The notes beneath the pieces were generated by a model. That model worked only from the letters and a program-made list of their open reading frames with translations, did not search any database and was not told the DNA's origin. A stretch of 64,000 bases of DNA from NCBI RefSeq assembly GCF_964019385.1, contig NC_088654.1:11241145-11305144 (forward strand), given 5' to 3'. How positions within the stretch are numbered: the first letter of the stretch is position 1; each line of letters starts with the position of its first letter. The DNA is from Sycon ciliatum. Its lineage: Eukaryota > Porifera > Calcarea > Leucosolenida > Sycettidae. The position numbers were made by a program, and so were the translations under genes. Below are positions 264 to 63,633 of the stretch, piece after piece.

Positions 264-25178
<24,915 letters not shown>

Positions 25179-28578: not shown

Positions 28579-28616
28579 CAGGGAGTCGTAAAATACCGGT
28601 ATTTTACTACTCCCTG
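28579..28616. mobile_element. 38-bp palindromic micro-element with decayed 8-bp duplication
   Basis: Begins CAGGGAGTCGTAAAATACCG and ends TACTACTCCCTG. Flanks GTGGGTAC and GTGGATGC agree at 6 of 8 bases. It is the same element as 63596-63633. Confidence 0.75.
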
Positions 28617-32985: not shown

Positions 32986-52144
<19,159 letters not shown>

Positions 52145-59750: not shown

Positions 59751-60261
59751 GGAGCTCCGGTATCGCGGTTTAGGGATCAGAGTGTTCACCAATCACAAAA
59801 TGCACACCATTGACACACACATCCGTGCACACATACACACACACACGCACACACACGCACACAAACACACACACATGCATGCTCTCACACGCAATAGAAC
59901 ACACGCGCGCGTACACACACACATACATTCACGCACGTGTGCGTACCCACCCACATGCATGTGCACACTCATGTGCATGAGTGGAGATGCCCGCATACAC
60001 ATGTCACACCAACATGCCCTGGGAGCGGTCATGCACGTGTGTATAGATGTGTGCGAGGGCACGTCCACATGAGCGCATATGCATGTGCATGTTCATACAT
60101 GCGTATGGTGCACACATGCACAAACATGCAGGTCTATGCAAACACACAGACGCTCGCGGCCGCCGCGCATACAGTGTGCTCATACATTTCCATAGCCATA
60201 GGGCCAATGACTCGCAAATATCATGAATAAATCTTATGAGATTGAAAAACGCACTTACCCA

Positions 60262-60643
60262 AAGCAGCGTTGGTGTTGCTTGTGGAAGCACGAGGGCCAG
60301 AGTGTTGAGCAGTTACAGGGCTATCTGTATCTATAAAATTCTCCATCCCACACTGCTGACACAGAATGACAAGTACGCTGCCCAGGTCGTACCTCTTCTC
60401 TTCAACGCAATCAATGAGCGCCAGAGGTTTGCTACATCCAGGATTCTGGCACGCAGACAATCCCACAGCCAGATACATGTACCTGAGATGAACGATTCGT
60501 CGACCGTGAAGAGGGGCACTGAACGACCTCTTCGCGGGAGTCGAATCCAGTGGCGTTAGTGATGGAGATCGCCCTTTCCGTTTTTCAGGAACTCGATCGA
60601 TCGTTTGAGTTTGCGAAGCGTCCCCCTCCTCGGCTTCTTGCAT
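60262..60643 (-). CDS. Hypothetical zinc-binding ORF, likely first exon of a transposon-type gene
   Basis: From ATG at 60643 the minus strand encodes a basic Ser/Pro-rich N-terminus and then GRRIVHLRYMYLAVGLSACQ. Two CxxC-type pairs follow (CQNPGCSKPL...; ILCQQCGM). It ends at a consensus donor (G/GTAAGT, about 60262). This pattern (GRRI..., then two zinc knuckles) resembles the N-terminal region of transposase-like proteins seen in cnidarians and sponges. No downstream exon was identified with certainty. Function unknown. Confidence 0.4.
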
Positions 60644-61184
60644 CGTCCAGTACGCAGAATGCGGGCCGCGTCGTGGGTGACGGATTACTCTCCCGCGTCT
60701 TCATCTCCACGACACGTCGGCAGGAGAACCGAGCTATCCAAAAACCGCCAATGTCAAAACAAATCCGCAAGTCCACTAGTGGCGGAGCTTCTTCCTCAAA
60801 TCTTGTCTCGACTCGAGCACGCGCTGCGAAGTCATGGTCAAACCATTTTCTGTGCATGATCGCGTCCCATTTTTCCACTCCGAAAGGCATTATTTTTCAG
60901 AAAAAAATTCGGAAATCCAACATGGCGCTAACCGTCGCGAACCTCCTGTGCAGCACAGCTTAGTCGAATAAGGCGGTGCCTTTGGTCGTTTTCTTCACGC
61001 TCATAAGTTCATAAGTACACGTGTACTTGATTGTATTTCTTCTAGCAAGATAAATGCTCGCTGTGTGCGTGATCAATAATGCTCGATGAAATCCAATCCA
61101 ATCAAGATTCAAGACGGTAGATTACATTCGGGTTTTCAACCCCTTTGCTCCCTCAAATCGATCCTCTTCCATCACCGCTTGCTA

Positions 61185-61460: not shown

Positions 61461-62227
61461 ACCCGGAGGTGGCTGAGTCATCCGCTCGACTCGCTGTCTC
61501 GGAAGCTGCCAATTTGCCATACAGCACTAGACAGTAACCATGGTAACTTATGCTCTCTTGTTTATGCCCCGGCATCATTGCTTTTCTGGTATGGTACATA
61601 ATTATTGCTAATGTATCATTGTGCTACTTCTGCCCGTACAAGAGGCCGGTTCCCGTCTTTAAAAAAATCCAAGGCAGTGCACAGCCCTAGACCTGCGAAC
61701 ACTGCGCTCAGCAACAGTGCACGGCGAAAAACTATTTACTTGACTCGAGCGACTACTCCGCGAATTCATTCTGCAGCACTGTACATTGTACATTGTATAT
61801 AGCAGCCAGGGAGGCATGTAGACAGACCACTTTCTTGTTGGTGCTCGTTCTCTCCGCCGACTTGACGTGCCACTGTTTCAGAGTTTGAATATATTATTGT
61901 ATTGCACCAACTACGTGTAGTTACTTGACGTTGCAGAGAAGATGTACTTCTTCTAGTACGTCCTGTATTTATTATGCGAGCTAATGGCCATACTAGTATT
62001 TAGTCTTCAGGTCTGTTAGCCGAGTTGTATGTCCAAACTAACGTTAATTGGACAAACTGACCTCGAATTACTCGCGTGTAGCACTTTTAGACTTGGTTCA
62101 GCTGCCATAGTTAGTTGTTGATTTGATGAGCAAGACCGTGTACCGTGTGCGCTTGCTTTCAACGTACAGTAGTTAACCATAACGTTCAGATTGTGTGGCT
62201 CGTTCCTTGGATTCGATTGAGAGAACG

Positions 62228-63358
62228 ATGTCTGGCGGAGGAAGTGAAGCATATTCATTCTACAGAACAACTATCGGAGAAGAAACGTTCGACTTACCAC
62301 AGCGATATGAAAAGGCATCACTGATTGCGAAAGGAGGACAAGCTGTTGTGGTGGAGGCCTGGGACAAACGGGAAAAGCAGAAGGTTGCCATCAAGAAGAT
62401 CTGCAAGCCGTTCCAGGATGCCAGCTCGGCTAAGAACACGTTCAGGGAGATAGTTCTCATGCGCAACTTGCAGCATCCCCAGTGCATGGGCGCATTGGAC
62501 ATATTTACTTCAGCCTCAAACCTGCAAGAATTCAGCGATGTTTACCTGGTGATGCAGAAGATGGATTGTGGCTTGAGTTCTAAACTTGGCAAGCACTTGG
62601 ACCACTCTGACATAATATTAATCCTTCGTGGGATTCTTAATGGAGTCCGTTATTTGCATGCCAGAAACATCATTCACGGAGATCTAAAACCTAGCAATAT
62701 TTTGATGAATAGCGACTGCACGTTGAAGATTTCTGACTTCGGAAAGTCGCTAGTAGATGACGGAGAGGGGAATACGGGTGTAACCAGCGGGACCACTATC
62801 TATCTTGCTCCAGAAGTCATCCAGGGTGGTCATTGCGGAAAAGGTGTGGATTCTTGGGCGATCGGATGCATCCTTTCGCGGCTTCTGGGACGGCAGAGAC
62901 TGCACCAAGCTAAAGATTCTACTAACCAGCATATGATAACATCACTGGGTAGTGACGTAATGGAAACACCAGAAGATTGGATTCGCACTAATCAAGCTAA
63001 GGATCTAATATCCAAGATGCTTAAGATCAACCCTGACGAGCGCATCTCCATTGTACACGCACTTCGCCATCCATACGTCCGAAGACCGCGGAGCAGTAGG
63101 GAACCTCATCGTTCCGCCCCGGACCAGTTTACGCACACAATGTTCTCTAAAGACCGAACTGTCGAGGAATGGAAACAGATCACATATGGCGAAATCCAGA
63201 ACGCACAGGATCCCGCTCGACCCCATTTTCTCAGTGGTGAGGTTGCCGACGGTGCTCTGGCTGCTGCTGTTTTTCTTGTTCTCGTTCTTGTTGTTGTGCT
63301 TGTAGTACTTCTACTAAGAGTCGCATCACAAATGGATGTCGTCAACCTTTATAGTTAG
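62228..63358 (+). CDS. Intronless JNK/MAPK-derived protein kinase with C-terminal tail anchor
   Basis: A single open exon of 376 residues. The start is the ATG at 62228 (A at -3); the upstream in-frame GTG at 62195 is not a eukaryotic start. MAPK/JNK signature: VAIKKICKPF, REIVLMRNLQHP, LKPSNILMNSDCTLKISDFG, DLISKMLKINPDERIS, HALRHPYV and TVEEWKQITY (JNK TIEEWKELIY). Retained: Lys56, Glu74, catalytic Asp152, Lys154, Asn157, DFG 170-172, APE 194-196. Altered: the Gly loop (AKGGQAV instead of GSGAQG), HRD changed to HGD (150-152), TxY changed to TGV (183-185), and the MAPK insert of about 40 residues missing. Residues 344-363 are an unbroken Leu/Val/Ala segment with about 13 residues after it, typical of a tail anchor. 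A retrocopy of a JNK-like mRNA is likely. Activity is uncertain because catalytic residues persist but activation residues do not. Confidence 0.8.
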   Translation: MSGGGSEAYSFYRTTIGEETFDLPQRYEKASLIAKGGQAVVVEAWDKREKQKVAIKKICKPFQDASSAKNTFREIVLMRNLQHPQCMGALDIFTSASNLQEFSDVYLVMQKMDCGLSSKLGKHLDHSDIILILRGILNGVRYLHARNIIHGDLKPSNILMNSDCTLKISDFGKSLVDDGEGNTGVTSGTTIYLAPEVIQGGHCGKGVDSWAIGCILSRLLGRQRLHQAKDSTNQHMITSLGSDVMETPEDWIRTNQAKDLISKMLKINPDERISIVHALRHPYVRRPRSSREPHRSAPDQFTHTMFSKDRTVEEWKQITYGEIQNAQDPARPHFLSGEVADGALAAAVFLVLVLVVVLVVLLLRVASQMDVVNLYS

Positions 63359-63595
63359 GTTCCAGAACTCGCCTGCAAGAAGATAGTGGTGAAGAAAGAC
63401 GACAGGAGCTCGACAAGCCATGGGGCCAACATGTTCTTGCCAGTCACCCTGGATCCACGCTCAGCTATGGGCAAAGTGCATTCTCTGCAGTTGCAGTACT
63501 GTAATAGGGAGAGAGTCTCTGATCGAGCCTGTGGCAAACTGCGCGAGGCGATTGAGATACAATGTACGTGATACTAAGCCCAATGTCAACATAAG

Positions 63596-63633
63596 CAGGG
63601 AGTCGTAAAATACCGGTATTTTACGACTCCCTG
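63596..63633. mobile_element. 38-bp perfect palindrome with perfect 8-bp target duplication
   Basis: Starts CAGGGAGTCGTAAAATACCG and is fully self-complementary. Flanked on both sides by AACATAAG (63588-63595 and 63634-63641). CAGGG ends plus an 8-bp duplication fit an hAT-type insertion. Confidence 0.85.

Follow-up and report, generated by a model that had tools for sequence, protein, structure and literature searches.

MAP kinases are the textbook example of control by dual phosphorylation. A few of their relatives, namely the atypical MAPKs ERK3/ERK4, NLK and ERK7, have moved away from the TxY motif or from activation by a MAP2K, and in this they resemble the kinase family described here; to our knowledge HRD is conserved in all of them, they fall into other branches of the MAPKs, and none is JNK-derived. 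In one account, ERK7 is described as constitutively active, and the dependence of ERK1/2 on MEK is said to have come about through low autophosphorylation (PMC6692128); compared with that history, our family would have gone the opposite way and by another route, by losing its acceptor sites. p38 and JNK are reported from most animals, sponges among them, and neither from seven ctenophores; invertebrates also have several p38 paralogues that have diverged strongly, two of them in the sponge Amphimedon (PMC9846432), so that divergence among stress MAPKs has precedents. The family also shares with non-RD kinases such as plant EFR a catalytic-loop HxD motif that lacks the arginine. Unlike our family, EFR lies in another kinase group, where the trait does not represent a loss within a MAPK, and activation-loop phosphorylation still matters there, to judge by the title of PMC8463890. 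A JNK relative without the phosphorylation switch was not found in a literature search among the titles and abstract openings listed.

The kinase gene copy studied here, W, occupies 62228..63358 of the window, by which we mean the whole stretch of 64,000 nucleotides that was analyzed (C13:11241145-11305144); coordinates below are window positions unless a contig is named, and all features of W lie on the + strand. As predicted, W is a complete and intact kinase open reading frame of 376 amino acids, running from ATG to TAG, and a whole-genome protein search places it at C13:11303372-11304499. Its protein matches Pfam Pkinase (PF00069) at 7.1e-53 over residues 27-284, spanning profile positions 1-263 of 263. 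Among the best 60 of 2463 PDB sequence matches, JNK3, JNK2 and JNK1 stand on top at ~225 bits and below, and the first p38 follows at ~198 bits. Identity is 37% to JNK1 over 349 aligned residues and 35% to p38a, and the alignment with JNK, interrupted by a single large gap where the MAPK insert would be, spans everything between the FY..IG..TF strand near the N-terminus and the EEWK helix near the C-terminus. A chance reading frame is ruled out by the Pfam and PDB matches together with the comparison of three copies given below. W had also been singled out as intronless; it is indeed a single open frame, but this is nothing special among the kinases of this genome, because its p38-, MKK7-, GSK3- and CDK-like genes likewise have one open frame over 230-320 matched residues, unlike the ERK-type genes, which are split. 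We rejected the intronless state as proof of retroposition, since several other kinases are equally intron-poor and W has 5' flank DNA in common with two of its relatives. Collections of viral contigs and genome contigs scanned with the W protein contained no relative, and scanning the window for Rfam families and tRNAs gave no hits.

Searching the genome (538,412,230 bases in 313 contigs) with the W protein gave 108 matches, of which three besides W itself are close, and all four loci lie on contig C13 within 0.5 Mb. The genome is that of an animal, judging by its matches to the Wnt family, and a calcareous sponge would fit. Two of them are intact: L002, with a 351-residue reading frame and 87% identity to W, and L003, with 337 residues and 88% identity. 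The last, L004, is 80% identical over residues 27-193 and is broken by one TGA and by deletions of 7 and 1 bp, its similarity stopping at 62760. The 5' flank at 61670..62227 is common to W and L002 (558 bp; 93.4% identity over 530 aligned bases, with 10 indels) and from 61973 also to L004 (~255 bp), which implies that W, L002 and L004 arose by DNA duplication. Apart from dispersed repeats, L003 resembles W only from ~62183 to 63404. All three intact copies have HGD and YLAPE and lack both TxY and the insert, and the 17 positions checked, HGD among them, are identical throughout.

The kinase domain of W has kept its catalytic residues and lost its phosphorylation switch. When aligned with JNK1, p38a and ERK2, the glycine loop (residues 33-40; 62324..62347) reads AxGxxA instead of GxGxxG, a degeneracy that had been noticed from W alone, and retains its middle glycine. 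The VAIKK motif (62384..62398) holds the catalytic Lys56, and HGD (residues 150-152; 62675..62683) replaces HRD while preserving the catalytic Asp152. Lys56, Glu74, Asp152, Lys154, Asn157 and Asp170 are present in each of the three intact copies, so that both the exchange of the HRD arginine for glycine and the retention of Lys, Glu, catalytic Asp, Asn and DFG, proposed for W, extend to its sisters. DFG is followed in the family by K/M-S-L, as against L-A-R.

The activation segment from DFG to YLAPE (residues 170-196; 62735..62815) contains no TxY. Its tyrosine is gone, as the original prediction had it, but the TGV that was read in place of TxY begins one residue before the TPY column: T183-P184-Y185 of JNK aligns ungapped with G184-V185-T186, these columns read G-V-T in W, L002 and L003 alike, and the threonine of W's TGV is alanine in both sister copies. 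In this alignment the phospho-acceptor sites for MKK4/MKK7 are absent from W. The loss exceeds the earlier description, because R174, R189 and R192 are gone too. Among seven switch residues, which we take to be the phosphate contacts of the phospho-ERK2 structure, six are replaced (R150>G, R174>L, T183>G, Y185>T, R189>T and R192>L in JNK1 numbering) and only R72 is retained; the HRD arginine, R174, R189 and R192 are likewise missing in L002 and L003. The joint loss of TxY and its arginine partners, with catalytic residues kept, is thus a trait of the family. Relative to the 117 positions that are invariant in JNK1, p38a and ERK2, W has changed 47. The 12 residues of a catalytic or structural set are all spared (hypergeometric 0.0014), and the said six of seven switch residues are among those changed (0.016), P values that are only descriptive because both residue sets were named by the analyst.

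The family further departs from JNK in lacking the MAPK insert and in having a basic rather than an acidic docking site. As had been noted for W, the insert is missing: 43 JNK residues face 7 in W at a junction (62951..62977) whose gap in the MAPK (CMGC) insert falls between residues 242 and 250, and L002 and L003 lack it as well. At the common-docking site, the acidic JNK stretch WYDPSEAE has given way to RRPRSSREPHR (63080..63112), with D326 becoming S289, and the counterparts in the sister copies are RRPRSSSKPRR (L002) and RRPRSSSKPYR (L003). What the family has in common with JNK (MAPK8/9/10, Drosophila basket) is the N-terminal FY..IG..TF..RY, the kinase sequence, the fold and the EEWK helix. 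PDB alignment and family comparison identify the latter as a JNK-type C-terminal helix, DRTVEEWKQITYGEIQN (63152..63202), and a query with fly JNK's C-terminal half matched the DRTVEEWKQITYGEIQN region of W, L002 and L003 at 34-36% identity.

From which MAPK might such a family descend? In a tree of MAPKs only (10 rows) it joins JNK with support 100/98, and AU tests reject its grouping with p38a plus the genome's own p38 (p 0.0098) or with the own p38 alone (p 0.0048), but not with ERK2 (p 0.067). In a tree of 14 rows, to which CaMKII, CDK and ERK5-like rows were added, the family instead stands beside CaMKII with weak support (55/94), perhaps through long-branch attraction, and neither JNK (p 0.40) nor p38 (p 0.063) is rejected as its partner. 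The proposed JNK descent is thus favoured by the best sequence matches and by the MAPK-only tree, whereas the larger tree does not recover it, though without rejecting it. JNK, p38a and ERK2 carry three different letters at 43 sites, at which the family agrees with JNK in 10 cases, with ERK in 6, with p38 in 1 and with none in 26. At 24 sites JNK differs from p38a and ERK2, which agree; here the family sides with JNK at 5 and with p38/ERK at 8 (11 other). Sites where p38a is the odd one out divide 5 against 2 (7 other), and those where ERK2 is divide 17 for JNK/p38, 3 for ERK and 13 other. A structure of W was modelled with an alignment of 19 rows, all kinases of this genome, and shows the usual two-lobed fold of a kinase (mean pLDDT 82, pTM 0.78), for which Foldseek returns JNK1 (3o2m) first at 6.6e-28 and p38a level with it at 6.9e-28, so that the fold cannot separate the two. 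The family accordingly also has the stress-MAPK body of p38/Hog1 kinases, such as the genome's own p38 on contig C2 (L005); unlike the family, which lost both, L005 retains TGY and HRD. Site letters and trees together bear out a stress-MAPK origin well, with JNK the best choice, though not a proved one.

Since duplication, the reading frame has been guarded and the amino acids only loosely constrained, and constraint overall is modest. dN/dS over 325 codons is 0.43 for W-L002, 0.50 for W-L003 and 0.53 for L002-L003 (Fisher p 0.002, 0.013 and 0.079, the last not significant), and these values lie below the dN/dS near 1 that the original prediction named as evidence against it. As few amino-acid changes occurred in 20, 62 and 79 of 2000 neutral simulations for the same pairs, and 79-90% of the simulations ran into a stop codon. 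None of the pairs has an indel in codons 1-332; W and L002 differ by 10 indels in the 558-bp 5' flank and by none in codons 1-335 (chance 3.4e-5), and indels between copies return in the tail codons after codon 332. On the other hand, nucleotide identity of W and L002 is 93.3% in the coding region, no higher than in the 5' flank (93.4%) and lower than in the 148 bp of 3' flank (98.0%), and no pair shows a significant excess of changes at third codon positions (p 0.13, 0.32 and 0.62), which indicates that recent amino-acid constraint has been weak.

A hydrophobic C-terminal segment had been taken to place W on a membrane as a gained tail anchor. The stretch itself is real (19 residues, 344-362, with a mean Kyte-Doolittle value of 3.6, the next best elsewhere being 0.9), but it is not a conserved anchor. 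In L002 a 71-bp deletion has removed it, the protein ending in AVVAAGNPL, and in L003 the site has received insertions of 1 bp and 114 bp and holds (GTT)45, which is out of frame after the 1-bp insertion, the protein ending in LFSQW. Indels between copies are concentrated in the tail codons 333-376 (63224..63358), and because of the changes in L002 and L003 the frame constraint is seen to end just before the hydrophobic run. On these grounds we rejected a tail anchor as a feature of the family. In W the run is read from a degenerate (GTT/CTT)n triplet repeat (63260..63318) with a 3-periodicity as strong as in 0 of 20000 shuffles, a repeat that is absent from the Tandem Repeats Finder list at default score. 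Across the six frames of the window there are 20 clusters with values of at least 3.0, counting W's tail, and the majority lie within or next to tandem repeats; 133 of 68502 stop-free windows of 19 residues are as hydrophobic as W's best or more; unlike the kinase, such a run can arise by chance. As far as the comparison within the family tells, the supposed membrane anchor is a product of repeat DNA, and the tail of W would be a by-product with no conserved role. A hydrophobic tail seen in one genome copy, then, may be repeat DNA, and caution is warranted.

What might these kinases do? We consider it somewhat better than an even chance (probability about 0.55) that W belongs to a local, recently duplicated family of kinases, three intact copies and one fragment, that derives from a JNK-type MAPK and is active without TxY phosphorylation. 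We envision that local duplication of a JNK-type MAP kinase yielded three intact copies and a broken one, in a lineage that has kept its catalytic residues while giving up TxY, the HRD arginine, most of the phosphate-holding arginines, the insert and the acidic docking site. The product would be a serine/threonine kinase of the non-RD kind that needs no phosphorylation by a MAP2K to ready its active site, and which would be controlled by expression or by partners instead. Because the CMGC arginine has been lost (YRAPE to YLAPE), the family has probably ceased to be proline-directed. Losing the HRD arginine is not in itself enough to free a kinase, because activation-loop phosphorylation has been reported for a non-RD kinase (title of PMC8463890).

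The original prediction had left room for a binding-only pseudokinase. In such a protein the fold would persist for binding after catalysis was lost, and HGD and the degenerate glycine loop would be signs of an inactive enzyme. AxGxxA, HGD, the K/M-S-L after DFG and the weak recent amino-acid constraint all fit such a protein, and the same genome encodes what is likely a second degenerate or diverged stress MAPK of pseudokinase-like character, L021 (C2:36470352-36471329, - strand), a p38-like single open frame of 498 amino acids with RPF and a docking-like stretch HDPDDEP, which lacks the VAIK lysine, has HSD for HRD and DLG for DFG, and shows no TxY. Yet L021 has lost several catalytic residues, whereas the W family has the full set of six in every intact copy, and W retains the central glycine of its loop, although 47 of 117 MAPK-invariant positions have changed; and non-RD kinases can be active. 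The retained set favours an active kinase over a pseudokinase, which we hold to be a possible but distinctly less probable reading. Less probable again, and in our view doubtful, is a dying family that was spread by segmental duplication and now drifts with its function gone. Coding sequence that diverges as much as the 5' flank, codon positions without significant skew and the broken state of L004 would be expected of it; against it stand 332 codons without indel or stop in three copies, where the flank of a single pair has 10 indels, a dN/dS below 1 that is significant for the two deeper pairs, and the integrity of all 17 positions checked. In order of likelihood we would place an active kinase independent of MAP2K first, a pseudokinase second and decay third.

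Two further alternatives concern the origin of the family and the location of W. Conceivably, the family is a fast-diverged MAPK of the ERK or p38 type that looks like JNK by chance: it sits on a long branch, its place shifts when distant outgroups are added, ERK2 is not rejected as its partner in the MAPK-only tree, and p38/ERK letters outnumber those of JNK where JNK stands apart. We find this about as improbable as decay, given that JNK leads by sequence, in the MAPK-only tree and at the three-way sites, and that W has a JNK-like IG..TF start, SDCTLKI and the C-terminal EEWK helix. Alternatively, W alone, unlike its sisters, may have acquired a working anchor from the repeat and become a membrane-placed kinase. 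Hydrophobicity alone would let residues 344-362 cross a membrane if they are translated, and 16 of 20 second codon positions of the run are T, the first and third bases being more variable. However, the segment is missing in L002 and out of frame in L003, indels cluster exactly there, simple repeats elsewhere in the window give similar runs, and a candidate splice from GTGAGG at 63237 to the end of a T-rich stretch at AG, 63305, could remove part of the tail. We regard this reading as the least probable of all those considered.

Human JNK1 as query found no canonical JNK among 110 matches (106 of 508 candidates scored), and neither did the C-terminal half of fly JNK among 100 matches (150 of 415 scored). 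The best match among those scored was in both cases the TGY p38 L005, at 46% identity with human and 57% with fly JNK, and the sole higher identity among them was 64% over 36 residues in the ERK5-like L006. The kinase frames of 18 matched loci, a part of all matches, contain no TPY in the stretch shown; we take these loci to comprise one p38, three ERK-type, CDK-, GSK3-, DYRK/CLK-, CaMKII- and PKD-like kinases and others. Over the candidates scored and the frames translated, absence of a canonical JNK from the assembly is likely, not proved. With human MKK7 as query, two MKK7-like genes were found on contig C1, L039 and L040, with 55% and 53% identity to human MKK7, and other MAP2Ks were found as well. 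The activation loops of the pair, NSKARTRGAGCAAYMAPER and NSQACTRDAGCTAYMAPER, are close to that of MKK7, and a TGA flagged in the second gene (NSQACTRDAGCTAYMAPER) is its own stop codon. The RH1 domain, which we take to be one of JIP3/4- and RILP-type proteins, occurs once in the genome.

These observations suggest a more far-reaching scenario, which we advance only tentatively: the JNK branch may survive solely as a duplicated, MAP2K-independent non-RD family with a non-CMGC P+1 loop, while MKK7-like activators are still encoded. If so, this would be a stress cascade with its last step unplugged. A JNK-derived family without acceptor sites, most of their arginine partners, insert and docking site, and with its catalytic set complete, would offer a test case from nature of how a MAPK escapes from its cascade.

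Elsewhere in the window and the genome, several features were recorded in passing. Downstream of W, at 63596-63633, lies a perfect 38-bp palindrome, CAGGG...CCCTG, with the 8-bp direct repeat AACATAAG at both sides; a second copy at 28579-28616 has one mismatch and flanks that agree at 6 of 8 bases, and by its look we take the element to be a minimal hAT-type MITE. The - strand of the window carries a reverse transcriptase reading frame at 19607-22357 (RVT_1, 1.1e-37; C-terminal C2H2 zinc-finger matches) and a Mutator-like transposase fragment at 60224-60700 (PF20700, 2.2e-08). A 52-bp tandem repeat at 50366-52081 (33 copies, 97% matches) keeps long frames of 534 and 597 amino acids open on the same strand. 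Kinase matches form one-strand arrays on two other contigs, at least 26 at C5 28.06-29.91 Mb with open frames of 298-447 amino acids and at least 10 at C14 17.91-18.05 Mb with open frames of 243-660. The Wnt family (PF00110) has 55 matches in the genome, and 19 of them extend at least to profile position 300.
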